NCBI GenBank assembly: GCA_002163135.1
Contig: MAAN01000025.1
Span: 62,001 to 126,000, forward strand
Reading direction: 5' to 3'
Source: Alphaproteobacteria bacterium 46_93_T64
GTDB lineage: Bacteria > Pseudomonadota > Alphaproteobacteria > Sneathiellales > Sneathiellaceae
DNA: 64,000 bases
Part shown: piece after piece, positions 5,788 through 61,194 of the stretch
How the letters are laid out: every line of letters begins with the position of its first letter
Position numbering within the stretch: position 1 is the stretch's first letter
Position numbers and translations under genes: made by a program
Notes under the pieces: generated by a model
Told to the model about the DNA's origin: nothing
Database searches by the model: none
What the model saw: only the letters and a program-made list of their open reading frames with translations

Positions 5788-5864
5788 GGCCCCATAGCTC
5801 AGCTGGATAGAGCAACAGATTTCTAATCTGTAGGTCGCAGGTTCGAGTCCTGCTGGGGTCACCA
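5788..5864 (+). tRNA. tRNA-Arg (anticodon TCT), integration target
   Basis: A full cloverleaf: acceptor GGCCCCA/TGGGGTC, D arm GCTC...GAGC, anticodon stem ACAGA/TCTGT with loop TTTCTAA (anticodon TCT at 5822-5824), T arm GCAGG-TTCGAGT-CCTGC, encoded CCA. Its 3' half is repeated at 39.76 and 53.80 kb, and a tyrosine integrase lies just downstream, so this gene is the attachment site of the island. The copy here is intact and should be functional. Confidence 0.97.
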
Positions 5865-6060
5865 GATCAAGCCCTTGAAAACATGAACGTTTTCAAGGGT
5901 TTTTCTTTTGTTCTCTCGTAAAACGCTGAAAAACCGTTCGTTTTGTTAAGTGTTTGTTTTTATTGATTAATACTGTTGAGTATTAATGTGTGTTATTTAG
6001 TAACGGGTAGATGAAAGGTAGATGGAACCGGCATTTGTTTCTAATTTGTTCTCCAATTAT
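5817..6060. repeat. att direct repeat, copy A (tRNA 3' end plus element left end)
   Basis: From the anticodon stem of tRNA-Arg through its terminator and on to the integrase 3' end, this DNA is repeated at 39757-39926 (copy B) and 53796-54207 (copy C). The match continues well past the tRNA. It includes the stretch around GTAAAACGCTGAAAAACCG and an AT-rich stretch ending in GTTGAGTATTA, so these bases belong to the element left ends and not only to the target gene. GGGTAGAT at 6005-6012 and GGTAGAT at 6017-6023 lie between the core and the integrase and may be arm-type integrase sites. Confidence 0.9.
5872..5904 (+). terminator. Terminator of tRNA-Arg
   Basis: A perfect 11-base inverted repeat CCCTTGAAAAC / GTTTTCAAGGG with a 6-base loop and a T-run. 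The same terminator, with small changes, follows both tRNA fragments further right. Confidence 0.88.
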
Positions 6061-6102: not shown

Positions 6103-7308
6103 TTAACCGAAAACTTCAATGCACATAGAGTTGGAACGTTCTGCTCGTTTTTCGTCGTCTTCTGGAAATAAATGCCCGTAGAATTGGTAGGTGACATCGA
6201 TGCTGCTGTGTCCCATTTCCTTTTTAATTTCCAAAGGAGATGCATCAGAGGCAATTAACATCGATGCATGAAAATGCCTAAGTGAATGAATACCAAACCA
6301 AGTTTCGACATGCTTTTTCTTCTTGCCGTTTTTTACGCGATAGGAAATTGTACAAAGCCCAGCTCGTTCGCAAATTGGTAGCCATCCTCGATTTCGGATA
6401 TTGGCGTAGCTCTCTATATTTCCTTGCCAATTTGGAAAGACGAGGTCTCCGTCAGGGCAATACATTTTCCAGTCTCTCAAGCACATCACAAGCTTAGTTG
6501 GGATTTGTACTGTTCTGCGCGCATGTTTAGTTTTTGGTGGGCCTATGGCGTTGGCTTTGTTGTCGGCACGCTGCTGTATTTTTATGGTTCTCTTTGAAAA
6601 ATTCACATTTATCCATTTAAGCCCTCTCAGTTCAGATATTCTAATGCCAGATAAAGCGAGGGTGAGAAAAATAGCATAATAACGATTGTATGATCGAATA
6701 TCCGTAGCTTTTGAAGCCTTTGGATAAGTAGCCGCAGCTTCAATAAGTTCTCTGACTTGATGTTTGGAAGGAATGGATAGCTCTTCACTAAACCTGCCGT
6801 CATCCTTAATTGTCACTCCAATCGCAGGGTTATATGCAAGCAGCTTTTTATCCAGTGCTACATTGAGCATTGTACTTAAAGTTCGCAATACACGCTTTGC
6901 CAATGGCCTGGAGCGACTGGTCAGCAGTTCAGCGCGGAAATGCTTGATTTTCTCACGATCCAGTTTATTGAGCCTTAACTCGCCAATCAGTGGGTTGATA
7001 TGTAGGCGAATTTCAGATTCATAGTTACTAATAGTTGCAGGTTCCAGGGGCATGCGGCCGTTAGGGCCGATTGCACATTCATGAAGCCAAACTGTGGCCA
7101 TCTCTTTAATCGATAGGGTTTTGCGATCGGGTACGTGGATGCCGTTCTTAAGTTCGATGTGTGATTTTGCATTAAAATCTACGGCTTCTTTTTTTGTAAG
7201 AAACTGCCTTTGATGCAGGTTACCGCTTTCGTCTAAATACTTGACTTTCCAAGCGACTTTTTCGATTCCCTTAGTGGTTTTCCATCTTACTTTGTACGGC
7301 TTTCCCAT
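6103..7308 (-). CDS. Tyrosine-recombinase integrase
   Basis: This 401-residue phage-type integrase has an N-terminal arm-binding (AP2-like) region with KYLDESGNLHQRQF. A SAM-like core-binding domain occupies about residues 65-170. The catalytic domain shows Arg in SGIRISELRGL, HSLRHFH (His341, Arg344), GHSS (His367) and the nucleophile Tyr377 in QFYGHLFP. All signature residues are present. It is transcribed towards tRNA-Arg, the usual layout for tRNA-targeting islands, and has a good ribosome site (AGGAGAG). It probably catalyses integration and excision at the tRNA-Arg 3' end. A decayed relative lies at 54.1 kb. Confidence 0.95.
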   Translation of the reverse strand: MGKPYKVRWKTTKGIEKVAWKVKYLDESGNLHQRQFLTKKEAVDFNAKSHIELKNGIHVPDRKTLSIKEMATVWLHECAIGPNGRMPLEPATISNYESEIRLHINPLIGELRLNKLDREKIKHFRAELLTSRSRPLAKRVLRTLSTMLNVALDKKLLAYNPAIGVTIKDDGRFSEELSIPSKHQVRELIEAAATYPKASKATDIRSYNRYYAIFLTLALSGIRISELRGLKWINVNFSKRTIKIQQRADNKANAIGPPKTKHARRTVQIPTKLVMCLRDWKMYCPDGDLVFPNWQGNIESYANIRNRGWLPICERAGLCTISYRVKNGKKKKHVETWFGIHSLRHFHASMLIASDASPLEIKKEMGHSSIDVTYQFYGHLFPEDDEKRAERSNSMCIEVFG

Positions 7309-12744: not shown

Positions 12745-14100
12745 CTACCGATGACCGTGCCATCCGGCCCAAACACTAGAAGATCTTTGGCCAGCTGAAA
12801 TTTCGGGCGCTTTAACAATGTCGACAGTTCTGTTTTCAACAGATTTTGTTTGTTTGACCAGTTTAGCGCGCAATTCGGTGGAAACATCTGCAAACGCATC
12901 CATGCCGATCAAATTTGTCAGCTCATAAGGGTCGGCGTGTAAATCATAAAGATACTCCTCTTCATACTGGTCCGCCCCTAAATCATTCCATCCATCCGCA
13001 TTTGGCGCACGAACCCCATATTTCCATCGCTTGGTCCGCACCGCTCGGCCGACATGATCCTCACTAATTTGAATAAATACGTCTTCGGGCCAATCTGTTG
13101 ACGTTCGATTAACCACCGGTAATAGAGAATTTCCTTCAAAATTATCTGGAATATCGAGCCCAGCGGCATCTAGAAGTGTTGGCGCTATATCAATGGTGCT
13201 AACAAGATTTGTGACGCGACCGCCGCCGGTGAAAGGTCCCCCGATGAGAGCACCCGGAATTCTGACACAGGCATCATGGCAAGAGCGTTTGTATTCGGCG
13301 TTGCGTGTTTTGAAATGACTGCCATGGTCCGACGTATAGAGAATAGTCGTTTCTTCTGAAATACCTAGGGTCAGGAGCGCATCTTGGATGCGACCGAAGG
13401 CATCATCCAGACGCTTTATCATGCCGAAATATCCAGGCAAATGTTGTGCGGCTGAACCACCGAGCGCTTGCAGATCTGGCGGCATCCATCGACCTGCATA
13501 ACGTTGTTCATCCCCAACACGACCGGGGTAATTATCCAGGTGATTTTGGTGATGAGGCTCGAGGAAGGAGAGAAACAGGAAGAAGCGGTCGTCCTTGACG
13601 CCATCAATGTAGCGAATTGCAGCATCTGTAAGTGCGTCAACTCTGTAGCCCGGCAATTTTTGAGCTTTGCCATCGTTATCATAGAGCGTGGTGTCATATG
13701 CATCAGAGGTATATTCGAGCATATTCGATGCCAGCCAATATTCATACCCGCCGCGCTCTGGTTCCGGAACCGGATCCTGGGTTCCTAAATGCCATTTCCC
13801 CACATAGCCAGTTTTAAATCCGCTTTTGCGAAAGAGTGATCCGAGTGTGGCAGAATCTTTTGGCAACGGAATATTATTGCGATAACACCCCGTGGTTGTC
13901 GGATAAAGTCCGGTTTGCATCATGGAGCGAGCCGGGCCACAGACTGGCTGATTAGTGAAACAATTATATAGGTGCGTCCCAGCCATGGCCGCAGTATCAA
14001 AATTAGGCGTCAGGTCCAGCGGGTTTCCAAAAATTGCAGACGAATCCCATCGCTGCTGATCAGTAAAGAAAACAATGACGTTTTTAGCTGTTTCGGACAT
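12745..14100 (-). CDS. Cytoplasmic sulfatase, Cys-type
   Basis: This 451-residue alkaline-phosphatase-fold sulfatase has the formylglycine signature CGPAR with Cys54. The metal-binding start is FFTDQQR (Asp14), there is VGKWHLG in the middle, and TSDHGSHFKT supplies the second metal site and a lysine. No signal peptide is present, so the enzyme acts in the cytoplasm on an imported sulfate ester. Maturation of Cys54 needs a formylglycine-generating enzyme that is not in this window. It is the last gene of an operon with two Gfo/Idh/MocA dehydrogenases and a NitT/TauT-type importer, so the substrate is probably a small sulfated polyol or sugar. Phosphonate monoester hydrolase activity cannot be excluded. 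Confidence 0.9.
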   Translation of the reverse strand: MSETAKNVIVFFTDQQRWDSSAIFGNPLDLTPNFDTAAMAGTHLYNCFTNQPVCGPARSMMQTGLYPTTTGCYRNNIPLPKDSATLGSLFRKSGFKTGYVGKWHLGTQDPVPEPERGGYEYWLASNMLEYTSDAYDTTLYDNDGKAQKLPGYRVDALTDAAIRYIDGVKDDRFFLFLSFLEPHHQNHLDNYPGRVGDEQRYAGRWMPPDLQALGGSAAQHLPGYFGMIKRLDDAFGRIQDALLTLGISEETTILYTSDHGSHFKTRNAEYKRSCHDACVRIPGALIGGPFTGGGRVTNLVSTIDIAPTLLDAAGLDIPDNFEGNSLLPVVNRTSTDWPEDVFIQISEDHVGRAVRTKRWKYGVRAPNADGWNDLGADQYEEEYLYDLHADPYELTNLIGMDAFADVSTELRAKLVKQTKSVENRTVDIVKAPEISAGQRSSSVWAGWHGHR

Positions 14101-14118
14101 AAATGGATTTCCTATACC

Positions 14119-15195
14119 TTAAGAATTCTTTGATTGAGTTGTTCCGGAAATAGCGACAACCTGTCCGGTGTTTGCAGCTTCGTATGCAGCCAAGATCATC
14201 GCAAGTGATCGGCATCCATCCTCAAGCGTTACGGGCGGTGGGGTTCCCTCGATTAAGGTTCTCACGAAGCTCAACGCATTTTGTTGATGAAATTCGCCTT
14301 TTTTAAATTGCGTAACAATGTCTGGTATGGTCCATGATCCGCGTCGCAGCTCATCTGTATAAACTTTAAGGCTTTTTTCGGGAGAAAAATCCTTTGAAGC
14401 CAAATCGACCCCGGACAAAATGGCGCTGCCTTTAGTGCCGAACACTTCAACGGAGGAATCTGCTGCCTGAATGGTCGACGATGAAACGAGTTCCGCTAGG
14501 GCGCCGCCTTCAAATCGAAATACAGCCAATCCCAGATCATCAACACCTAGTTGCGCAGCATCTTCGGATAACATGGCCATTACAGATAGAGGTTCGCCTA
14601 GAAACCAGCGAATTAGATCAGCACCATGGATACCTTCATCAATCAACGCCCCCCCTCCTGACAGCGTCGCATCGGTGTGCCATTCTTTAGAAAATTCCGG
14701 ATCGAGGCCGTAAAAATGACAATGGCGAACGCGCATCAGGGTAATACGTCCTAACGCTTCGCTATCAATCAGACGCTTGATTTCGTGATTTACCGCATCA
14801 AAACGCTTTGGAAAACTTTGCTGGAAGACTATTCCTGAGTTCTGAACAGCGTCAATAATACGATCACATTCTAGATTTGACGTGGCCAATGGCTTTTCAC
14901 ATAGAACATGAACGCCATGCGCAGCCGCTTTTTCTATAACGTCAGCATGAAATGATGTTTCATTGCACAGACCAATTGCGTCGACCTGAGACAAAAGTTC
15001 TTCCAAGTCAGCGACATATTCGGTCTCGTAAGTATTGGCCGCGTTCTGGCCTCTAGCTTTGTTAGAATCCCATATTCCGACCAAATTGGTTTCTGGTGAA
15101 TCACGAAATACTTCGGACCAGAAATTTGCGTGATAGTGGGCAAAGCTGACCATTCCAATTCGAATGGGAGGCTTTATGTTGGCAGTGTTTATCAT
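14119..15195 (-). CDS. Gfo/Idh/MocA-family oxidoreductase
   Basis: This 358-residue NAD(P)-dependent dehydrogenase has an N-terminal Rossmann domain (IRIGMVSFAHYHANFW; note the unusual SFAHYH in place of a strict GxGxxG). It then shows the family motif CEKPLATS (EKP lysine) and a C-terminal alpha/beta domain with GGGALIDEGIHGADL. Members oxidise sugars, inositols or their derivatives. It sits 18 bases upstream of the sulfatase and 20 bases downstream of a second member of the same family, pointing to two successive oxidations or an oxidoreductive cleavage. The substrate is unknown. Confidence 0.9.
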   Translation of the reverse strand: MINTANIKPPIRIGMVSFAHYHANFWSEVFRDSPETNLVGIWDSNKARGQNAANTYETEYVADLEELLSQVDAIGLCNETSFHADVIEKAAAHGVHVLCEKPLATSNLECDRIIDAVQNSGIVFQQSFPKRFDAVNHEIKRLIDSEALGRITLMRVRHCHFYGLDPEFSKEWHTDATLSGGGALIDEGIHGADLIRWFLGEPLSVMAMLSEDAAQLGVDDLGLAVFRFEGGALAELVSSSTIQAADSSVEVFGTKGSAILSGVDLASKDFSPEKSLKVYTDELRRGSWTIPDIVTQFKKGEFHQQNALSFVRTLIEGTPPPVTLEDGCRSLAMILAAYEAANTGQVVAISGTTQSKNS

Positions 15196-15215
15196 GCGTA
15201 ACGTCGGATTGAATA

Positions 15216-16253
15216 TTAGACTTCAACCCATTCCTTTCTTTCATTTGACGTGTAAATAGCGTCAGCAATTTTCACAGCTTCCAATCCAGCTTGAGCAGTT
15301 CCTTCCGACGTCTCTGCTCCACCAAACACGTTCAACCAGTGCCTATGGTGCATTTGTCCAAACGGGGACTGCGCCAGTTCCGGAATAACCCAGTCATTCT
15401 GTCCCGTTACTTTTGGCGCAAAGATAGCAAGCCGGCCTCGCTGCGTTCGCAACAACAAGGTTCCTTCCTCGCAATAGATTTCCATTCTGAAACGGTCTGT
15501 ACCACTGAGCTCGTTAAAGCTGATTTCATGCGTCACATCAGCACCATTTTCCAATTTGTAATGCGCGACTGCATGGTCTTCGTTATCGGGATGGACAACC
15601 CTGCCATCAAGTAAAACTCGTTCAGGGCGCTGTATGCTACACGTGGCTGATAAAGATACTATTTCACCCAACACATAACGAACCAGATCGATCCCATGCA
15701 CGCCTAATTGCTTAACAACACCACCACCAACATTCTTTCGGAAGAAAAACCAATCGTTCCAGTTGGGACCCGGCGTAGCGTTTCGTATCCGCGCACTAAG
15801 AATCCGACCCATTTTTCCTTCAGCCAAGATTTGGCGCACAGCCTGCACTTCTTCCAAATAACGATGCATGAAACTCACGGATAGCTGGGCGTCGCTTCGA
15901 CTTGCAGCATCAATGACAGCCTGACATTCGACAACATCCCTACCCATGGGTTTTTGGAGCAATACTGCCTTGCCAGCCTGGAGCGACTGAATAGCGAAAT
16001 CCATATGCGTGTGGTCCGGGGTCGCAATGACAACAGCGTCAATATCATCGCGCCCAAGAACTTCGTCTATGTTTGTTGAAATTTGATCAATACCGTTTTC
16101 GTCCGCGATCGTTCGTGCAGCCTCCGCAGTACGGCTCATAATGACCCGAATATCCGCCATGCCTGTCGCTGCTAACCCGTGCAGATGATAGGCGCTGATT
16201 TCTCCAGCGCCTATCATCCCGATGCGGACTTTGTTTTGGTTAGTCAAAGACAT
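15216..16253 (-). CDS. Gfo/Idh/MocA-family oxidoreductase
   Basis: This 345-residue dehydrogenase of the same family as its neighbour has a canonical nucleotide-binding start (VRIGMIGAGEISAYH). Its lysine motif reads LLQKPMGRD (QKP rather than EKP), and the C-terminal catalytic block is GGGVVKQLGVHGIDLVRY. The difference in the EKP motif shows the two paralogues are not a recent duplication. It probably acts in the same pathway, on the intermediate before or after the other enzyme. Confidence 0.9.
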   Translation of the reverse strand: MSLTNQNKVRIGMIGAGEISAYHLHGLAATGMADIRVIMSRTAEAARTIADENGIDQISTNIDEVLGRDDIDAVVIATPDHTHMDFAIQSLQAGKAVLLQKPMGRDVVECQAVIDAASRSDAQLSVSFMHRYLEEVQAVRQILAEGKMGRILSARIRNATPGPNWNDWFFFRKNVGGGVVKQLGVHGIDLVRYVLGEIVSLSATCSIQRPERVLLDGRVVHPDNEDHAVAHYKLENGADVTHEISFNELSGTDRFRMEIYCEEGTLLLRTQRGRLAIFAPKVTGQNDWVIPELAQSPFGQMHHRHWLNVFGGAETSEGTAQAGLEAVKIADAIYTSNERKEWVEV

Positions 16254-16290
16254 GTAGTGAACCCTAATCTGACCAATGATCCATTCGTCT

Positions 16291-17337
16291 TTATGGCTTC
16301 CACTTGCCTTCGACTTTCACCAAAGACGGATCGATATTTTTTAGAGGATCCGTGTAAGTATAGTTCAAGGCATCCTGACGATTTTTAATGCGTCCGCCGT
16401 TCTCCAGGAAATCTGCAGTTGCGGCCATATCCCGAACATAAGCTTCGTCCATAGTTGGATCGAATTTATAGTTTGATGGATCAAGAAGAACCGAATTCAT
16501 CTTCGGGTCTTGTTTCTGGTAGTCGGAAAATAGCTTAATAACTTCATCCCGGTTTTTAGGGTCCGCAACAAATTTTTGCGCGCGAACCATTACGTTCATT
16601 ATTGCTTGAACAGTATTTGGACTAGATCGGACAAAATCCTGAGACGCAACAAATACGGAGCGAGCACTAGACAATTTGACGGACTTACCCTTGTTGTCAT
16701 CGAAATAGCTGATCTTTCCTGTGTGAATGACTTTAGAATCCACACCGTTTAGCGCTTTGTAGATCCAAGGTTCCCAAACGATTGTGCCATCAATATCGCC
16801 TGCTTTCATGGCCGCCAATGCTTCCGGCGGAGCCAAATTGACACCCGTGAGTGTCTTAATGCCATATTGCTCTTTTAACTTTCCGAGCAAGGCACCTGAA
16901 GAAGAGCCCAAGAACAATCCTACTTTTTTGCCTTCCAGATCGGCAGGTGAATTAATACCAGAATCTTTGCGAACAACAATCTTTTCAAGACCTGTATTGA
17001 TACTGTCAGTGCCCAGAATAACTATCGGCATTCCATTGTGGAACATGGCGATCGGCGGTAAATTGGCTGGCGTCCAAAGGTGAATTTCATCTGCAATCAA
17101 TGCCTGACCTGCCAGCGCTTGCGCCGAAAAGGATTTTGTACTGACGCTTTCAAATCCTTCGTCTTTGAACCAGCCTTTTTTCATACCAATAATGTGTGGC
17201 GCAAATGGCAGATCAACACCCATCCCAAAAGCAATATTCTTGATTTCTAGGGCGCCGGCAGCTTGTGCCGTCACAGCACTAAAACTCATGGCAGCAGCGA
17301 CGATTGTTCCCGTCACTATTTTTTTCAAATTACTCAT
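16291..17337 (-). CDS. NitT/TauT-family substrate-binding protein
   Basis: This 348-residue periplasmic binding protein has a clear signal peptide (MSNLKKIVTGTIVAAAMSFS, cleavage near AQAAG). Its NMT1/SsuA-like fold has the two-domain hinge, including KGWFKDEGF and LEGKKVGLFLGSSSGAL. It is the extracytoplasmic receptor for the two permeases and ATPase encoded upstream. Relatives bind taurine, alkanesulfonates, nitrate or aromatic acids. The sulfatase in the same operon suggests a sulfated or sulfonated ligand, which is inference. Confidence 0.9.
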   Translation of the reverse strand: MSNLKKIVTGTIVAAAMSFSAVTAQAAGALEIKNIAFGMGVDLPFAPHIIGMKKGWFKDEGFESVSTKSFSAQALAGQALIADEIHLWTPANLPPIAMFHNGMPIVILGTDSINTGLEKIVVRKDSGINSPADLEGKKVGLFLGSSSGALLGKLKEQYGIKTLTGVNLAPPEALAAMKAGDIDGTIVWEPWIYKALNGVDSKVIHTGKISYFDDNKGKSVKLSSARSVFVASQDFVRSSPNTVQAIMNVMVRAQKFVADPKNRDEVIKLFSDYQKQDPKMNSVLLDPSNYKFDPTMDEAYVRDMAATADFLENGGRIKNRQDALNYTYTDPLKNIDPSLVKVEGKWKP

Positions 17338-17398
17338 AACGTCTCCTCTGATTTAGATACTTCGTGAAACAACTCTCTTCAGGTCTTAGAATTTATTA

Positions 17399-18175
17399 TT
17401 AGTAGGTGTGCCATTTTCCGATTTGACGTCGTATGACAACGCCGATTGCATAATCGGTTACAAGATTAACCACACCAATTAGCACGATGCCGAATATGAT
17501 AATTCCCACCTGTCCAAGTTCTCGGGCATGCATGATCATGAACCCCATGCCTTCATTTGCAGCCACCAATTCAGCTGCGACCAACATGCCAAAGCTCAAT
17601 CCCCAGCCAATACGGATGCCGGTGGCAAGATCAGGTAGCGACGCTGGAAGAGCGACCTGAAACAGGATGCGCCATCCCTTCAAACCCATGGTCTGAGCAG
17701 CGCGCAGTAGAACCGGATCAACGGATATCATGCCTTTATAGGCGCTTGTCACGACAGGAAAAAACGCACCCAGGGAAATAACGAATATTTTGGATGGTTC
17801 ACCCAAGCCAAGCCAGATGATGGCCATGGGAATCCATGCCAGCGGCGGAATGGGACGCGTCAATTCGATGAGTGGGCGTGTTAAAACGCCAACCCATGCG
17901 TACCAACCTGATGCCACGCCCACTATAATGCCGAGCGACCCGCCGATGAGAAATCCCCAAAAGACACGGGTCAAACTGGCCCAAACATGGCCCCCAATTT
18001 CGCTCAACGGCATCGTCGTAAGTGTTGCCGTAACAGCTTGTGAGGGGGAGGGGAAAATCTCCTGGCTGATTATTCCGGTATATGAAACGATTTCCCAGAT
18101 CGCAAAAAGTGCGATCACCCCGATTAGGCCCAGAGCTGTATCATTCAGCTTACTTGAATTTTCCTGGGTGTTCAT
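17399..18175 (-). CDS. ABC transporter permease (SsuC/TauC class)
   Basis: This 258-residue inner-membrane permease has about six transmembrane segments and the EAA loop region LPASLPDLATGIRIGWGLSF. Its start overlaps the preceding permease gene by four bases. With its partner it forms the heterodimeric channel of the importer; most SsuC-type systems use a homodimer, so two distinct permeases are a distinguishing trait here. Confidence 0.9.
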   Translation of the reverse strand: MNTQENSSKLNDTALGLIGVIALFAIWEIVSYTGIISQEIFPSPSQAVTATLTTMPLSEIGGHVWASLTRVFWGFLIGGSLGIIVGVASGWYAWVGVLTRPLIELTRPIPPLAWIPMAIIWLGLGEPSKIFVISLGAFFPVVTSAYKGMISVDPVLLRAAQTMGLKGWRILFQVALPASLPDLATGIRIGWGLSFGMLVAAELVAANEGMGFMIMHARELGQVGIIIFGIVLIGVVNLVTDYAIGVVIRRQIGKWHTY

Positions 18176-18981
18176 CGACGCACCTCCTCAAGGCCTTTAT
18201 TCCAAGGCAAAAGGATACGCTCCAACAATTGCAGAACCCCTGAAATGCCCAATCCCAATAGTCCGATCAACGCCATACCGATCAATGTGATATCTGCTCG
18301 GTAAAAATTACGCGCTTCATTTATCAGCGCGCCCAGCCCTTGGATAGTACCGATCATTTCAGCGCCGACAATGACCATAAATGCGACCCCTAGAGCGACC
18401 CTGGCCCCGACGAAAATACGGGGCAGTGCAGCCGGTATGACAACATGCAGGAAGATAAATTTTTGGTCAGCCTCAAGCGTTCGTGCCGCACGAATTAAGA
18501 GTGGATCAACGAATTTTACCCCAGCAATTGTGTGTGCAATCATGGCCCAGAATGTGCCATAGGCAATAATGGCAATTTTTGGTGCTTCGCCTGTCCCAAA
18601 CCAAAAAATAACCAGTGGCAGTAAGCTCAACGCGGCAACAGAGCGACCAAAGGTTATGATTGGTGCGGTTAATTTGTCCAAAAGACTATAGGACCCGATT
18701 ACAACGCCCAATGGAACGGCTAACAAGCAGCCCAACACATAACCCTGGACAATCCGCCACAATGTCCACCCAATATGTATGTCGACGGTTTGCTCAATTG
18801 GGAAACCGCTAGTGAACAATTCAACGAAAGCCTCCCAGCATTTTGAGGGCGGCGGGAATTTATAAATTTTCAGCCATTTGAGATCAACGGCAACTTCCCA
18901 GGCAATGAGCAAAAAAATGATAAATACGGCACCGACAAGGCGGCTTTTGGTTGTTGTAGACAAACTAAATAAGGCGTTCAT
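18172..18981 (-). CDS. ABC transporter permease (SsuC/TauC class)
   Basis: This 269-residue permease has the loop VVIPAALPRIFVGARVALGVAF. The start is taken as the ATG that overlaps the ATPase stop (TGATG). An alternative five codons earlier lies within the ATPase gene. It pairs with the following permease. The N-terminal transmembrane run begins after SLSTTTKSRL. Confidence 0.9.
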   Translation of the reverse strand: MNALFSLSTTTKSRLVGAVFIIFLLIAWEVAVDLKWLKIYKFPPPSKCWEAFVELFTSGFPIEQTVDIHIGWTLWRIVQGYVLGCLLAVPLGVVIGSYSLLDKLTAPIITFGRSVAALSLLPLVIFWFGTGEAPKIAIIAYGTFWAMIAHTIAGVKFVDPLLIRAARTLEADQKFIFLHVVIPAALPRIFVGARVALGVAFMVIVGAEMIGTIQGLGALINEARNFYRADITLIGMALIGLLGLGISGVLQLLERILLPWNKGLEEVRR

Positions 18982-19820
18982 CACAGCCCCGCCCAAATAT
19001 CTTCATACATCTCTAGAAACTCGACCGAAGAGCGATGCCGTGGCCGGGAAAATGGAACTGAGAATTCCCTGCGAATGCCTCCCGGATTGCGACCCATGAG
19101 AAAAATTCGATCAGATAGAACCAAGGCCTCAGTAAGGCTGTGGGTAACAAAAACAACTGTTTTTTTACGAACTTCCCAAATGCGCAATAACTCGTCTTGC
19201 ATTTCCAAGCGCGTCATTTCATCCAGTGCACCGAACGGTTCGTCCATCAGCAAGATTTCTGGATCCAAAGCCAAGGCCCTTGCGATCGCCACTCTCTGCT
19301 GCATACCGCCTGACAACTCTCTGGGATAATGGTTCTGGTATCCGTCAAGCCCGACGAGCTTTACTAAATCCATGGCAATTTCTGTTCGATCGGCTTTGCG
19401 CATGCCTTTGCTTTTACAACCGAAGGCGACATTTTCTATCGTTGTGAGCCAGGGGAAAAGTGCGTGTTGTTGGAAAACCATGCCTTTTCCATCGCCGGGC
19501 CCGGTAACTGTTGTGCCATCAATACGCACAATGCCACTAGAAGGCGGCACCAATCCTGCCAATATATTGAGCAACGTTGTTTTTCCACATCCTGATCTGC
19601 CGACCAAGGAAACGAACTCGTTGTTGCGGATATCTATATTCACGTCTTTTAGGACGGGAACATCTTCCGCATCTGCCACCTGATATATTTTCGAGACATT
19701 TTCAACTGAGATTTTGACAGAGTTGTGCGATACCTTCTGCATATTCTCTGGTTTTGAATTAAGCTTGTGGTCAATATTTTCCACAATTCCCCCTTTTGCT
19801 CGAACCAATCCTTTGCTCAC
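18981..19820 (-). CDS. ABC transporter ATPase (SsuB/TauB class)
   Basis: This 279-residue ATPase has Walker A GRSGCGKTT, signature LSGGMQQR, Walker B ILLMDEPFGALD and H-loop FVTHSLTEAL, all intact. It opens with a GTG behind AGGGACG; an internal ATG at 19742 would trim a non-conserved extension. It is the first structural gene of the importer operon. The promoter region before it holds three ATTGTAT repeats resembling those in front of the regulator gene. Confidence 0.88.
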   Translation of the reverse strand: MSKGLVRAKGGIVENIDHKLNSKPENMQKVSHNSVKISVENVSKIYQVADAEDVPVLKDVNIDIRNNEFVSLVGRSGCGKTTLLNILAGLVPPSSGIVRIDGTTVTGPGDGKGMVFQQHALFPWLTTIENVAFGCKSKGMRKADRTEIAMDLVKLVGLDGYQNHYPRELSGGMQQRVAIARALALDPEILLMDEPFGALDEMTRLEMQDELLRIWEVRKKTVVFVTHSLTEALVLSDRIFLMGRNPGGIRREFSVPFSRPRHRSSVEFLEMYEDIWAGL

Positions 19821-19859
19821 GTCATTCGTCCCTCAAATAGTATTGAAATTGGACATTTC

Positions 19860-19895
19860 ATTGTATCGATTGTATTGTCAATATTGAAATTGTAT
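19860..19895. promoter_or_regulatory. ATTGTAT repeat operator upstream of the importer operon
   Basis: Three direct copies of ATTGTAT begin at 19860, 19869 and 19889 in the short gap between the regulator and the ATPase gene. The same heptamer occurs twice in inverse orientation before the regulator. The likely ligand is the GntR-type protein encoded next door. Confidence 0.55.
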
Positions 19896-19909
19896 TGTTT
19901 CTAATTTAT

Positions 19910-21034
19910 TTATTTCTTTGCCGCCGGCAGCATTTTGACGCTGTCCTTTCTATCTAATACTGCTTCAAGGTAAACCGTCCGGTATGATGCGTCGGCAAAC
20001 GTCAACCGGCGCTGAATGGACTCTTGTATGTTCTTTACGGCATCCATTGCGCAGGTCCCTGCGACGGTAAAAAAATTCTTGTGTTCAGATTCCACATCTA
20101 CGTGACCGAGCAATACAACGCTCACATCTTCCGGTATCCGCCAATCCAAACGACTAAGCGCATCCAGCAAAATTTCACCATTAGTCACACCCCATATCAT
20201 GAGGGCGCTAAATTCAGGCTTCCCGTCCGATCCTCGATATTCTACCAACTGTTTCTGGATCTCCTCGACACGCTCTTCTCCTGGAACATGATCTAGCAGA
20301 ATGGGAGGTAAAAGCTTGTCCTCCCAATCCCCCCACCGACGCATGGATTCGTAGTGTTGCCGGGTTGCGTCGATAGGCCTTGCTTCGGCAGAGGATGTTG
20401 CAAAAGCTATCTTTTGATGGCCTTGCTCAAAAAGATGCTGAAGCGCCAAGTCCAGTGCTGACCGCCAATCTGAGGCCACGGAATCCACGTCAATTCCGGT
20501 GATTGTTGCGCCATCAAGAACAATTATTCGACTGCGTTGGCGAAGAAACCAGAGCAAATCAATGTTGACCAACTCAAAGTGCGACTGCAACACACAGGCG
20601 TCAAATTTTGGTAACGCGCGAAGCGCCAGCAACGCATGATCAACGTCACTATAGGTAACCTGAAGCGATTGAATCCCGTCTTCGGATAGTTGTTTTTGCA
20701 ATTCGCGTGACGCCTGCCGACTGCGTGCTGTGGCAGCGTGACGCGATAGCATAAGCACGCTACGACCCTGTTCCAGGTTCGTATTATCTTCTGAAACAAG
20801 AGAGCTATTCGATGGAGCTATCTCTCCATCTACAGCAACAAAAGTACCACGCCCTACTTGCGCCGAAATCAGCTTTTCACCTCTTAACACTTCAAGAACA
20901 CTCTGGACGACGCCTTGGCTGATACCAAACCGGCTCATCATCGATCGTACCGTAGGCAAGCGATCTCCCGCTCGTCCGGACCGGATCAAATCTCTGAGCA
21001 TCTGCTCCAAACCTTCGCGGTTGGCATTTGTCAT
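19910..21034 (-). CDS. GntR-type HTH with LacI-like sensor domain
   Basis: This 374-residue regulator has an N-terminal GntR winged helix (about residues 8-75: RLPTVRSMMSRFGISQGVVQ, then GRGTFVA). A periplasmic-binding-protein-like sugar sensor follows (about 95-365), as in LacI proteins. Such AraR/GntR-LacI hybrids usually repress sugar-uptake operons until a sugar binds. It heads the minus-strand operon of importer, oxidoreductases and sulfatase, so the inducer is probably the imported compound. Ribosome site GAGGAGCG. Repeats of ATTGTAT lie both before this gene and after it. Confidence 0.88.
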   Translation of the reverse strand: MTNANREGLEQMLRDLIRSGRAGDRLPTVRSMMSRFGISQGVVQSVLEVLRGEKLISAQVGRGTFVAVDGEIAPSNSSLVSEDNTNLEQGRSVLMLSRHAATARSRQASRELQKQLSEDGIQSLQVTYSDVDHALLALRALPKFDACVLQSHFELVNIDLLWFLRQRSRIIVLDGATITGIDVDSVASDWRSALDLALQHLFEQGHQKIAFATSSAEARPIDATRQHYESMRRWGDWEDKLLPPILLDHVPGEERVEEIQKQLVEYRGSDGKPEFSALMIWGVTNGEILLDALSRLDWRIPEDVSVVLLGHVDVESEHKNFFTVAGTCAMDAVKNIQESIQRRLTFADASYRTVYLEAVLDRKDSVKMLPAAKK

Positions 21035-21050
21035 TACACGCTCCTCTCAA

Positions 21051-21068
21051 ATACAATATCAATACAAT
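21051..21068. promoter_or_regulatory. ATACAAT repeats upstream of the GntR-type regulator
   Basis: Two copies of ATACAAT (reverse complement of the ATTGTAT heptamer) start at 21051 and 21062, 11 bases apart, 17-34 bases before the regulator start. This is one helical turn and fits a dimeric repressor autoregulating its gene. Confidence 0.5.
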
Positions 21069-21298
21069 ATATATTGAAGAGCGTTTTTTGCAAGATATTA
21101 CCCGATCCATTAGCGAGGGCTGATCCAAGAATTTAATAACATGCGGAAGAAATGTGCGATCTCTTTCGCGCCCTTCACGCTAACTGGATAGCTCGGAGTA
21201 TTTAGCTATGACCAATGACAAAAAAGGAAATAATTTAAGATACGAGCAATTGAACGATCCGAGAAAATCGGCGGCAACATAAAAGCCTGTGTAGCTAA

Positions 21299-21457
21299 TG
21301 TCCGCAATGGGTCAAATTCAGACGTTTTTGGTGGTCTGAAATCACTTCCGCTTCCCCACACTTTACAGACGTTAATGCCTAACAGATCAGCTTGAAGTCC
21401 AAAAACGGAAGAAAATGAACGATCCTGATTTAGTCTCTTTAGTGCCAAAAGCGGAAG
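21299..21457. repeat. Dispersed degenerate repeat, long copy 1
   Basis: The segment begins TGTCCGCAATGGGTCAA and ends AGTGCCAAAAGCGGAA. It aligns along its whole length with 56238-56397 with frequent substitutions. Shared blocks include CTTTACAGACGTTAATG, TCAGCTTGA and GAACGATCCTGATTTAGT. Shorter or more diverged copies occur at 12666, 22743, 32791, 37378, 54871 and 59811. Confidence 0.8.
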
Positions 21458-39708: not shown

Positions 39709-39756
39709 AAAAGGTAGATGTTGATACTAAGTGATTGATAATAAACAAGTAAAAAT

Positions 39757-39926
39757 AGATTTCTAATCTGTAGGTCGCAGGTTCGAGTCCTACTGGGGTC
39801 ACCAGATCAAACCCTTGAAAACATAGACGTTTTCAAGGGTTTTTCTTTTGTTCTCTCGTAAAACGCTGAAAAACCGTTCATTTTGTTAAATGTTTGTTTT
39901 TATTGATTAATACTGTTGAATATTAG
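39757..39926. repeat. att direct repeat, copy B (tRNA-Arg 3' fragment)
   Basis: The 3' part of tRNA-Arg from the anticodon stem to CCA (one change, CCTACTGGGG for CCTGCTGGGG) is followed by the tRNA terminator and about 120 bases matching the left end next to the integrase. The match breaks at about 39926, before any integrase sequence. It is not a functional tRNA. It is attR of the first segment and attL of the second. Confidence 0.9.
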
Positions 39927-53795: not shown

Positions 53796-54050
53796 GCAGG
53801 TTCGAGTCCTGCTGGGGTCACCAGATCAAACCCTTGAAAACATAGACGTTTTCAAGGGTTTTTCTTTTATTCTCTCGTAAAACGCTGAAAAACCGTTCGT
53901 TTTGTTAAATGTTTGTTTTTATTGATTAATCCTGTTGAGTATTAGTGCGTATCATTTAGTAACGGGTAGATGGTGCCGGCCTTTGTTTCAAATTTGTTTT
54001 CCAGCTATCGTTGCGGTTTAGCAAAGTACCTAAGGCACGGCTCAAAACTA
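53796..54050. repeat. att direct repeat, copy C
   Basis: Begins at GCAGGTTCGAG of the tRNA T arm, continues through CCA, the terminator and the left-end sequence, then GGGTAGAT at 53964-53971, and leads into the integrase relic. It matches copy A over its whole length with scattered changes. It is attR of the second segment and the left end of a third, decayed element. Confidence 0.9.
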
Positions 54051-54051
54051 C

Positions 54052-54207
54052 TTATCCGAAAAACTCAATGCATATGGTATTGGAGCGTCCTGCTCGTTTT
54101 TCGTTGTCATCTGAAGATAGATACCCGTAGAACTGATATATGACACTAATGCTGCTGTGTCCCATTTCCTTTTAATTTCCAAAGGAGATACACCAGAAGC
54201 ATTTAAC
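54052..54207 (-). pseudogene. Integrase relic (C-terminal 50 codons)
   Basis: The minus-strand frame gives MGHSSISVIYQFYGYLSSDDNEK and ends in CIEFFG, matching the C-terminus of the intact integrase at 6.1 kb, including the catalytic Tyr. One A is missing in the AAAAAGG run just upstream, shifting the frame. Homology stops at about 54207. The rest of the gene is gone. Confidence 0.92.
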
Positions 54208-55163
54208 TTCTTTTGAACCTAAGTCAACAGATGAACGCATGCTTTCAACTTGGCTAAGTCATGAAGACGGAACGCATATATCTAATCGTAGTATTGAAGC
54301 GCCAAACCATCAAACCATCATTTCTACTGAGTATATGGAGTGTCAAATAATACAAGAAGTCGTGTAGATAATTCTCATTTGGCTTGGTTAGGTTATGAAC
54401 CCAAATTGAATGTGGAAGATTTTTGGATGAAATTCTAAAAACGGCGAAGCTTTAGGCCCCTTAGCAGGAAGAACGCATGGCAGTGGAGCGTGTAACGGTA
54501 GTTTTTCAGGTGATATGAAGATTTCATTATCTTTTGACTAAAACTAGGCCAAACACATAAAATATTGAAGTGCTTCTGGTGGGCGCCCAAATACAAATTT
54601 ATGACTAGAAGACGGGGCAGGGAACTTCCAAACCACAAACTAGTTGGGGCTACACTTTTGGAAATAAAATGTTGGAAAAGCGCTGCGGCTAGATCCAAAT
54701 GGAAAGCATCTCGGGGAAGGCATCGACTTTCTGTGTATGTTTACCTATGTACTAAAAACGAACAGTTATACACGAACCTCATTGGCTATCCATTCACCAT
54801 GACATCAAATTGAATTAAGACTTTTAAGGTCCGAGTCGGATCATGAGCCGTCCTTTTTAGGCACTGAAAATGGAGTCCGCAATACCCATCAATAATGGAC
54901 ATCGATTTTGAATTTTCAGATTTCTCTGAAATAACTTCCGCTTACCCTGAAGATACAAATTCGTTAATCCCAAAGAGTCTGAAAAGTGCCAATGGGAGAC
55001 TAGCTGATAACCTAATGGACACAGTTGAATTTTCTGCGCACCCATATTGATATATACTAATACTGGTATTGACATCTCCGAAATGCCGCTTTTGTATATA
55101 TTGAATTAATCTAATATATCAGTTAAGTTGATAGCTGAAAAAACAACGGAATGGTGGTGTAAT
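54208..55163. other. Intergenic region with a repeat copy
   Basis: No convincing gene. A diverged copy of the dispersed repeat lies at about 54871-54998 (CAGATTTCTCTGAAATAACTT interior, ending GAAAAGTGCCAATGGGA). An open frame of about 46 codons near 54216-54365 and one at 54565-54813 have no recognisable product and no ribosome site. Confidence 0.5.
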
Positions 55164-55871
55164 ATGTTGAAGAAATTCAGACAAACGATCCTTTCTCAAG
55201 CGCTGGCTGCAGTATTGCTGTTTGGCGGAGCAACTAATGCGTCGGCTATTCCCGTTATTTCGGTGGATTTGGATCCGACAACACCAGGGATACAGACGAC
55301 CCTGAATGTCATCGCTGGATCTTCGTTTACGTTTGATATGGTTTTGACAGGCGATGGTAGCAGTTTATTTGACCTTTTTGCATTCGCAGCTGACTTCAAC
55401 AGTTCCGGGGCAGTACTCGGGTTGCCGGGAGGTATGCGAGTAGCAGGCACTATAGCAGGCACTGCGCCAGTAACAGCACTAGACATATCTACAGCTGCAA
55501 CAACAGTACCCGGTTCGCTTTTGGGGACCCTCCCTTTCCCAGTTACACCCGGATTTACAACATCCAGCGGTGGAGTTGGTATAATTTCATTAACCACACC
55601 GTTTGCAGGGCCAATTCCAGCAGGTACGACAATCGATCTATTCAGTCTGACATTGAACGCCCTGACACCGGGCACGAGCCGGATAATACCAAGCACTGGC
55701 GGAGGTTTAGGTGGATTAGTGTATGCCGGTGCTTTCGTGCCGACTACATTGCGGGGCGGCAGCGTCACCGTTAGTGCCATCCCCTTGCCAGCCGCCTTTC
55801 CTCTCTTCGCGGCGGCCCTCGCAGGATTTGGTTTCGCCGGATATCGGCGCAGGAGAATGCCGATTGAATAA
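55164..55871 (+). CDS. VPLPA-CTERM protein (exported, exosortase-type sorting)
   Basis: This 235-residue exported protein has a signal peptide (ILSQALAAVLLFGG, cleavage near NASA). A beta-rich cohesin-like middle (VDLDPTTPGIQTTLNVIAGSSFTFDMVL) follows. The C-terminal sorting signal is AIPLPAAFPLFAAAL, then hydrophobic residues and the basic end YRRRR. This is the VPLPA variant of PEP-CTERM, which is cleaved by an exosortase-like enzyme not seen in this window. It is likely surface-exposed or secreted into extracellular polysaccharide. Start at the ATG after GGTGGTG; a longer frame of 12 codons is possible. Confidence 0.88.
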   Translation: MLKKFRQTILSQALAAVLLFGGATNASAIPVISVDLDPTTPGIQTTLNVIAGSSFTFDMVLTGDGSSLFDLFAFAADFNSSGAVLGLPGGMRVAGTIAGTAPVTALDISTAATTVPGSLLGTLPFPVTPGFTTSSGGVGIISLTTPFAGPIPAGTTIDLFSLTLNALTPGTSRIIPSTGGGLGGLVYAGAFVPTTLRGGSVTVSAIPLPAAFPLFAAALAGFGFAGYRRRRMPIE

Positions 55872-56053: not shown

Positions 56054-56532
56054 CTTAGACAACTTTACGCAGCCACTCTCGGTTCCACATCACAGCCTCT
56101 ACTTCCCTCGAAAAGTGTTGTTTGTAGCCATAATGCATGTACCTTTTCGTGTGGTATGAAAACTAGAAATGAGCCTTTATGGGATCACTTTAGAAGGTCA
56201 TTAAACTTCAATAACTATTTTGCTTAGATTAATTGAAATGTCCGCTTTGGGTCAACTTCAGAAGTTTTTGGTGATATGAAATCTCTTCCGCTTTGCCATG
56301 CTTTACAGACGTTAATGTCTAACAAGTCAGCTTGATGTCCGAAAACGGAAGCACTTGAACGATCCTGATTTAGTTCCGGTAAGTGCCACGAGCAGTCATT
56401 CTGGATTGATTTAGAACCGTCTGAAACGGGAACTTTGCAAACGTTCATTTGCATCAAGGGTTTTGATGTTTTAGGCTCGAAACACCCTTGCTGGTGACCA
56501 CCTTCTCTTTAGAACAACTGGGAACGCATTTT
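56054..56532. other. Intergenic region with repeat copy 2
   Basis: No gene. The dispersed repeat copy at 56238-56397 fills its middle. Confidence 0.5.
56238..56397. repeat. Dispersed degenerate repeat, long copy 2
   Basis: Begins ATGTCCGCTTTGGGTCAA and ends AAGTGCCACGAGCAG. It aligns end to end with 21299-21457. On the minus strand both copies share a similar open frame (QADLL.INVCK.W and PKTSE.DP.RT), which could be chance or a trace of former coding. Confidence 0.8.
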
Positions 56533-60066: not shown

Positions 60067-61194
60067 ATGAAACTTAGAACAACAAAATCCGTGCGCTTAT
60101 TTGCATGCAGTGCCATTGTCGCTTCGGGGGCAATCTTATCTGGCATAACACCAGCCGTATCAGCGACCTATTTGCCTGATTACATGGTTATTGCAACTGG
60201 ACAAAGTAACAGTAGCAATAACAATGTTGGCAACCCCTTGCATTTATCAACTTCTGAACTAGGTGCTATCGGTGCTAACGGTGCGGTGTCCCCGCCCGGT
60301 AGTGTTCCCTCTATCCCGGGAGCCCATGGGAGTTCCAGGGCGTCAAGCGGCATAACATATGACGGTGATGTGGCCATTACAGAGACGAACGGCGTTATTA
60401 CGAGTAGTAATTCTCATGTTTATTCTGCAAATACGGGAGCAGGGAACCAAGGGACACAGGGTATAGATTGCGCTGGATCATACAACACCTGCACAGATAG
60501 TGGTAGCCAGATTAGTAGCAATAATAAGCACGGAACACCGGGTCCTACTTTGACTAATCTTGGAAATAACAAGGGTGTTCAGGGTGGGTTTGCAGCGCAT
60601 ATGGCAGACCTGAAAACCGAAGCTCAGACTTTGACTACCGACTATTGGAATTTGGCGGCGACTGACACATTTGGTTTTGAGAAAATAGATGGCAACAGAT
60701 TAGACGTGTTTGGTTCAGGTGATCACGTGATTGATTTGGGTACAAAGGATAAATTCCTTTTGCAAAACGGTACTTGGACAATTTCAGGTGCGGCAGATAC
60801 AACCGTTATATTCCGCCTAGTGAATGACTCAATATTTGATATTTCGCAAGCAAACCTAGTGGTTGGCGGCGCGATGGGACTTAATAATGTTCTGTTCCTG
60901 GTCGATGGAAAAGACGGCACCGGTAGTTTTACATTCAACAACGTTTTCTTTAATGGCATGTCTTTCTGGGATTATGGCGGGCAAGGCGAGAAAAATGAAG
61001 CCGTTTGGAACAATGTCGCCGGTTGTGGTCAGGTCATGACAGATAAGATTAATTTCAACAATGTTAGTATGACAGGTTGTGAATTTAATCCAACGGTAAC
61101 TGTAGTTCCTCTGCCGGCAGCATTTCCCTTATACGGTGCAGGTATTGCTATAATGGGCTTTATCGGATGGCGTAAAAAACGGCGTGCTGCATGA
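60067..61194 (+). CDS. VPLPA-CTERM protein, secreted adhesin-like
   Basis: This 375-residue exported protein has a signal peptide (LFACSAIVASGAILSGI, cleavage near PAVSA). A Ser/Asn/Gly-rich body (NSSNNNVGNP, GSSRAS, SSNNK) precedes a beta-helical-looking region (about 195-345) recalling choice-of-anchor proteins. The C-terminal sorting tail is VVPLPAAFPLYGAG...GWRKKRRAA. Cys residues in GIDCAGSYNTC could form disulfides. Probably anchored or released by an exosortase-type enzyme elsewhere in the genome. Function unknown. Confidence 0.87.
   Translation: MKLRTTKSVRLFACSAIVASGAILSGITPAVSATYLPDYMVIATGQSNSSNNNVGNPLHLSTSELGAIGANGAVSPPGSVPSIPGAHGSSRASSGITYDGDVAITETNGVITSSNSHVYSANTGAGNQGTQGIDCAGSYNTCTDSGSQISSNNKHGTPGPTLTNLGNNKGVQGGFAAHMADLKTEAQTLTTDYWNLAATDTFGFEKIDGNRLDVFGSGDHVIDLGTKDKFLLQNGTWTISGAADTTVIFRLVNDSIFDISQANLVVGGAMGLNNVLFLVDGKDGTGSFTFNNVFFNGMSFWDYGGQGEKNEAVWNNVAGCGQVMTDKINFNNVSMTGCEFNPTVTVVPLPAAFPLYGAGIAIMGFIGWRKKRRAA

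Follow-up and report, generated by a model that had tools for sequence, protein, structure and literature searches.

A candidate operon for small sulfate esters on a tRNA-Arg island: a NitT/TauT-type importer and a Gfo/Idh/MocA pair with exchangeable cytoplasmic sulfatases

What does a NitT/TauT-type importer carry into the cell when its genes are followed by those of two Gfo/Idh/MocA dehydrogenases and a sulfatase? The question is raised by positions 12745-21034 of a 64,000-nucleotide stretch (hereafter the window) of contig MAAN01000025.1 (positions 62,001-126,000, forward strand) from Alphaproteobacteria bacterium 46_93_T64, a member of the Sneathiellaceae (assembly GCA_002163135.1). Eight open genes, all on the minus strand, stand here in the transcription order regulator-ATPase-permease-permease-substrate-binding protein (SBP)-GfoA-GfoB-sulfatase. 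We consider it probable, with moderate confidence, that they form a catabolic operon whose substrate is a small sulfate ester, its alcohol part resembling a sugar, sugar acid or cyclitol. A first-pass annotation had described one-strand genes with short gaps and named these same parts, which the open reading frames, the sequence and the Pfam match of every one of the eight genes confirm. The largest gap (89 bp) separates the regulator from the ATPase gene; the ATPase and permease 1 genes overlap by 1 bp (TGATG) and the two permease genes by 4 bp, and the remaining gaps are 61 bp (permease 2/SBP), 37 bp (SBP/GfoA), 20 bp (GfoA/GfoB) and 18 bp (GfoB/sulfatase).

The evidence that carries this reading comes from the ATPase-permease-permease-SBP-GfoA-GfoB block (hereafter the core), which recurs in other bacteria. 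Searching 385 genomes of the class and 398 of the phylum with the SBP (E 1e-50) returned, beyond the window genome, only G254, while a plasmid collection yielded Sinorhizobium sp. RAC02, of algal phycosphere origin, and the SBP is present in 7 of 23 genomes of the alphaproteobacterial family to which G254 belongs (f128). Core order is identical in RAC02, G254, G406, G408, G411, G416, G418 and G419 as far as contigs reach (in G254 the contig ends inside gfoB, and the part of G419 that was read ends inside permease 2), with ~41-64% identity for nearly all complete core genes. The core of G408, on a 7.8-kb contig, was left out of the count of sulfatase neighbours; of the 8 testable loci, among them the window, 7 have a sulfatase gene within ~5 kb of the core. 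In the window it adjoins gfoB. G411 and G254 each have a CCPAR sulfatase (62% identity between the two) next to the ATPase gene and preceding it, and the CMPAR sulfatase of G418 and G419 follows gfoB at a distance of ~1 kb, with a LysR gene in between. G416 has a CQPSR sulfatase ~5 kb upstream of the core and in the same orientation, followed by a GntR-UTRA gene, a DUF3604 protein, another Gfo protein and then the core. In RAC02 the sulfatase, of CMPAR type and 52-53% identical to those of G418 and G419, belongs to a separate operon that diverges from the regulator and also encodes DUF3604, a CUT1 SBP, permeases and an ATPase. These core-linked sulfatases fall into four groups with 21-29% identity between groups, and none has an obvious signal peptide (judged by eye, no predictor). 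A reading of the sulfatase as a fixed part of the gene set is not supported and was rejected, since four groups join the core; the window's own subfamily is beside no other core.

The association was compared with that of other importers of the same type, of which the f128 genomes searched encode many (8-17 NMT1-type proteins per genome). In seven genomes, a PF00884 match lies within 10 kb on the same contig for 6 of 7 core SBPs; among the other NMT1-type SBPs this holds for 3 of 70 (Fisher p 2.4e-6, without correction for relatedness). Many of the 70 controls are on short contigs, which biases against finding their neighbours. Two of the three control exceptions share a second sulfatase-NitT/TauT layout, GntR-sulfatase-SBP-ATPase-permeases. 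This second layout, with a cytoplasmic CVPSR sulfatase, lies at L114:7195-12440 and L115:8303-12892, in G418 and G406. Four core loci (RAC02, G254, G418 and G419) are flanked by genes for homologous CUT1 sugar-binding proteins (42-51%). DUF3604/CehA-McbA-like metallohydrolases adjoin the core in four loci (L090:6518-8068, L110:2629-4785, L111:2417-4558, L113:4789-6930); a DUF3604 search gave no match in the window genome, and the same search matched in none of the control genomes either. Beyond the core of G411 (L108:9650-13340) are a xylose-isomerase-like TIM-barrel protein and a protein resembling the 3-dehydroshikimate dehydratase QuiC (below cut-off), a possible hint of cyclitol metabolism.

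The product of 12745..14100 is, on sequence grounds, a probable desulfation enzyme. It scores 164 bits against PF00884 (cut-off 25) and combines the sulfatase domain with the C-x-[PA]-x-R motif and the catalytic D, R, K and H residues of Cys-type S1 enzymes; D14, Q15, C54, R58, N75, K102, H104, H183, D258, H259 and K271 show at least 97% conservation when the protein is aligned with 80 homologues. Its earlier description as a signal-less CGPAR sulfatase stands: C54-G-P-A-R is present, and by eye no signal peptide is apparent at the N-terminus (MSETAKNVIVFFTDQQRW). K102-x-H104 (GKWHL) aligns with identical letters in N-acetylglucosamine-6-sulfatase 5g2v, and D258-H259 is presumably closer to choline sulfatase and phosphonate hydrolases than to D-N arylsulfatases. 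More specific identities were rejected, namely choline sulfatase (TIGR03417, 115.7 bits against a cut-off of 433.45), PehA (NF045661, 124.9 against 900) and arylsulfatase, whose curated cut-off was not reached. By homology the subfamily is widespread, the 80 homologues found in genome contigs being 58-65% identical in Paenibacillus, Chloroflexota, Poribacteria and others. The importer-Gfo core is beside none of these 80, and no further member was found in 24 other genomes of the genus (some incomplete) at E 1e-60. About 30 of the 80 neighbourhoods hold CUT1 permeases, the neighbour clusters consisting otherwise mostly of antisense or spurious frames; these permeases were not used as evidence because the host genomes are rich in them. 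On plasmids of Martelella, Microvirga and R. leguminosarum, relatives of the window sulfatase stand directly behind CUT1 sugar permeases of the ATP-binding cassette (ABC) class and before a LacI gene.

The importer is of the NitT/TauT type at family level, with an NMT1-type SBP, BPD_transp_1 permeases and an ATPase by Pfam, and to that extent the first-pass annotation holds; a substrate-specific label does not, no such NCBIfam model being above cut-off. The SBP, which has a plain signal peptide at its N-terminus, falls below the cut-offs of SsuA (TIGR01728, 132 against 163.5 bits) and TauA (TIGR01729, 64 against 304 bits), and the nearest models of the ATPase (SaoA, TauB, NtrC/D) are likewise not reached. 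The profile search with the SBP is led by TauA 6ssy and SsuA 2x26, the nearest solved relatives, and TauA and SsuA are also the best fold matches of a model with a predicted local distance difference test (pLDDT) value of only 65; structure models were built from seven or eight sequences, RAC02 rows being left out. Having TauA and SsuA as nearest relatives fits an anionic sulfo group on the ligand.

Both dehydrogenases have a GFO_IDH_MocA domain and a C-terminal domain, and the difference in subtype proposed earlier is evident. GfoA is classical, with a GAGxI loop, QKP and Q181-x3-H185, and its profile matches are led by a putative NAD-dependent dehydrogenase (6nor), levoglucosan dehydrogenase (6a3f) and scyllo-inositol dehydrogenase (6ktj); in the alignment it has Gln at the position where Asp is the usual residue of the family. 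The atypical GfoB has SFAHYHA (SFAHYHANFW), largely conserved among aligned orthologues, instead of the Gly-rich GxGxxG nucleotide-binding loop, and retains EKP, D185 and H189; its model (pLDDT 82) has 1,5-anhydrofructose reductase 2glx as top fold match. Cofactor binding by GfoB may therefore be unusual, as may the chemistry of the pair, given the missing Gly-rich loop of GfoB and the Gln of GfoA. Neither protein reaches the models of IolG (TIGR04380; GfoA 143, GfoB 142, cut-off 355) or levoglucosan dehydrogenase (NF052479; 110 and 78, cut-off 650). Since no substrate-specific NCBIfam cut-off is reached by SBP, dehydrogenases or sulfatase, the names taurine transporter, IolG and choline sulfatase are unjustified.

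GntR-LacI regulators are a type associated with carbon sources, and Pfam places a LacI-type ligand (effector) domain in the regulator of the window; locus L090 holds a divergent orthologue, 32% identical. The sequence CAATACAAT, a motif picked by eye, has three copies in the 64 kb, two of them in the regulator-ATPase gap and the other before the regulator, and these sites are candidate operators in a suggestive sense only. Promoter and terminator scans gave results near chance.

A substrate of the sugar, sugar-acid or cyclitol type is suggested indirectly by several features: the LacI-type effector domain, the sugar and inositol dehydrogenases that are the closest solved relatives of the Gfo proteins, the CUT1 neighbours at four cores, and the plasmid clusters in which relatives of the window sulfatase adjoin CUT1 permeases and a LacI gene. 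The pathway for a small sulfated sugar or polyol advanced in the first-pass annotation thus fares unevenly, its sulfate-ester part being supported by the four cytoplasmic sulfatase groups beside one core and the enrichment (6/7 against 3/70), its sugar or polyol part indirectly. We infer a sulfated ligand and the following order of reactions. The SBP would bind the ester in the periplasm, the two-permease ABC importer would take it in intact, and the Cys-type sulfatase would cut off sulfate in the cytoplasm, after which the polyol part could undergo NAD(P)-linked oxidation and/or reduction or epimerisation by GfoA and GfoB. The regulator would sense the substrate or an intermediate and control both itself and the operon through the candidate operators in front of its own gene and between the regulator and ATPase genes. 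In this scheme the conserved core would consist of importer and dehydrogenases, and the sulfatase would be exchangeable, perhaps to suit where the sulfate sits on the substrate.

Several observations weigh against this reading. The nearest detected sulfatase of the G406 core is ~50 kb away, the subfamily of the window sulfatase is absent from all other cores, and G418 and G419 are near-duplicates, leaving fewer independent cases than counted. The SBP model is weak, sulfur-free binders (thiamin, pyrimidine, bicarbonate) are among its fold matches, and NMT1-type ligands are varied. Cys-type sulfatases require formylglycine, and no canonical formylglycine-generating enzyme (FGE) was found in the window genome, which encodes three Cys-type sulfatase-family proteins. 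Its two PF03781 proteins both lack the FGE cysteine signature, on which ground their identification as FGE was rejected: at the motif that reads GGSYLCHASYC in the FGE of R. leguminosarum 248, one has GGSWDDKGCGVC and the other no cysteine. They lie at L085:1492-2367 and L086:1492-3486. The radical-SAM maturase TIGR03942 was not detected in the window genome either, the same search being positive in 9 control genomes. The activity of the window sulfatase is therefore not assured; unless the host has an unrecognised maturation route, the enzyme would fall short of full activity.

The G406 locus, the isolated subfamily and the many sulfur-free ligands of NMT1-type proteins would also suit importer and dehydrogenases that serve a sulfur-free compound (an organic acid, cyclitol or sugar acid), the sulfatase having joined the end of the operon on the genomic island described below, with another substrate or as a bystander. 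We regard this as unlikely, given the enrichment, the four unrelated sulfatase groups at one core and the mere 18 bp between gfoB and the sulfatase gene. Less likely still is sulfur scavenging of the kind proposed for the Pseudomonas atsACBR cluster, in which esters would be mainly a sulfur source and the dehydrogenases would merely clear the alcohol part. Such scavenging would agree with the arylsulfatase and sulfonate-type ABC importer paired in that cluster and with TauA and SsuA as nearest relatives of the SBP, and it is opposed by the GntR-LacI regulator, the two dehydrogenases within the conserved core and the operon's eight genes, which include no sulfonatase or oxygenase. That the enzyme is no sulfatase but a member of its superfamily that hydrolyses phosphonate monoesters or phosphodiesters, as PehA among its better NCBIfam matches and the presumed likeness of D258-H259 might suggest, is very improbable in view of the PehA score (125 against 900) and the retained K102-x-H104, aligned with the letters of 5g2v.

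The operon lies within a 34-kb island (5.8-39.8 kb of the window), as judged from a tRNA-Arg gene, an integrase and direct repeats (Table 1). A third copy of the 3' end of tRNA-Arg and its downstream sequence (53796-54210, 427 bp, 83%) is accompanied by a 39-residue remnant of an integrase C-terminus, and the three tRNA-Arg-derived copies (5788-5985, 39754-39925, 53796-54210) share direct orientation; these are tRNA-Arg islands in tandem, and the operon belongs to the first. Horizontal acquisition forms part of the explanation that we favour and shares its moderate confidence. The base composition of the operon is about that of its surroundings and therefore reveals no distant source. Elsewhere in the window, a 138-bp intergenic stretch is repeated with 86% identity (21297-21434 and 56237-56374), and two exported proteins (55128-55871 and 60067-61194) end in VPLPA-like C-terminal anchors (IPLPAAFPLF...RRRR and VPLPAAFPLY...KKRR), which suggests a PEP-CTERM-type sorting system.

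Table 1 Coordinates of the operon genes, candidate operator sites and island features in the window.
Feature	Position	Strand	Basis
S1-type sulfatase, 451 aa, C54-G-P-A-R	12745..14100	-	PF00884 4.9e-48, SGSH_C 6.9e-17
GfoB, Gfo/Idh/MocA protein	14119..15195	-	PF22725/PF01408; orthologue alignments
GfoA, classical Gfo/Idh/MocA dehydrogenase	15216..16253	-	PF01408 1.2e-24; profile matches; alignment
SBP, periplasmic, NMT1/SsuA type	16291..17337	-	PF13379 8.8e-21; NMT1/NMT1_2
Permease 2	17399..18175	-	PF00528 (BPD_transp_1) 1.6e-25
Permease 1, ATG overlaps ATPase stop	18172..18981	-	PF00528 (BPD_transp_1) 1.5e-20; sequence
Importer ABC ATPase	18981..19820	-	PF00005 (ABC_tran) 2.3e-33
GntR-LacI hybrid regulator	19910..21034	-	PF00392 1.1e-11 + PF13377 1.3e-08 (GntR + Peripla_BP_3)
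Candidate operator, two CAATACAAT sites in regulator-ATPase gap	19869..19897	-	motif search of 64 kb
Third CAATACAAT site, immediately upstream of regulator start	21060..21068	+	motif search of 64 kb
tRNA-Arg(tct), integration target, island left edge	5788..5864	+	gene followed by the integrase gene
Island tyrosine integrase	6103..7308	-	PF00589 7.6e-18
Direct repeat of tRNA-Arg 3' end + downstream, island right edge	39754..39925	+	172 bp, 95%

More generally, and as a tentative proposal to which we give somewhat less than even weight, these loci may represent a catabolic module of a type not described before, in which intact small sulfated sugars or cyclitols enter by NitT/TauT import, a coupled Gfo pair acts on the desulfated product, and a sulfatase swapped between lineages matches the position of the sulfate, the module being spread in part by tRNA islands. 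NitT/TauT importers are numerous in bacteria, and the taurine, sulfonate or nitrate specificity given in their annotation is usually a guess; a reproducible link to cytoplasmic sulfatases gives one family of them a testable ligand class. It also suggests a route by which Gram-negative bacteria could exploit small organic sulfates with no need for a sulfatase in the periplasm, and with SBP and dehydrogenases conserved and the sulfatase exchanged, substrates could be mapped by comparison.

Among known systems, IolG, levoglucosan dehydrogenase, scyllo-inositol dehydrogenase and 1,5-anhydrofructose reductase share fold, domain set, the EKP/QKP Lys and the active-site His with GfoA and GfoB, and differ from them in that the equivalog cut-offs are unmet, GfoB has no Gly-rich loop and GfoA has Gln for the usual Asp. 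Paired Gfo/Idh/MocA enzymes are also a feature of oxidoreductive glycoside cleavage (BT2157-BT2160, DgpA/DgpBC), whose lyase partner, however, is not among the eight genes of the operon. The CUT1-sulfatase-LacI clusters on Rhizobium, Microvirga and Martelella plasmids have the window's sulfatase subfamily (56-58% identity), a dedicated importer and a sugar-type regulator, but the importer is CUT1 rather than NitT/TauT and no Gfo pair stands beside the sulfatase; in R. leguminosarum 248 a canonical FGE gene is found just upstream, whereas the window genome yielded none. The Pseudomonas sulfate-ester importer and arylsulfatase cluster atsACBR, described for strain UW4 (PMC3596284), resembles the window operon in placing a sulfatase gene next to an ABC importer of the sulfonate type. 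It differs in its LysR-type regulator SftR (the window operon has GntR-LacI and no LysR-type gene), in its single listed permease, AtsB, as against two, and in listing no Gfo/Idh/MocA genes, of which the window operon has two. The claim that no pathway with exactly this gene set had been described thus survives in part: a search of open-licence papers found no description of the set, but the pairing of importer and sulfatase was already known from atsACBR (PMC3596284). That pairing has precedent, and what is new is the conserved Gfo pair together with the exchangeable sulfatases.

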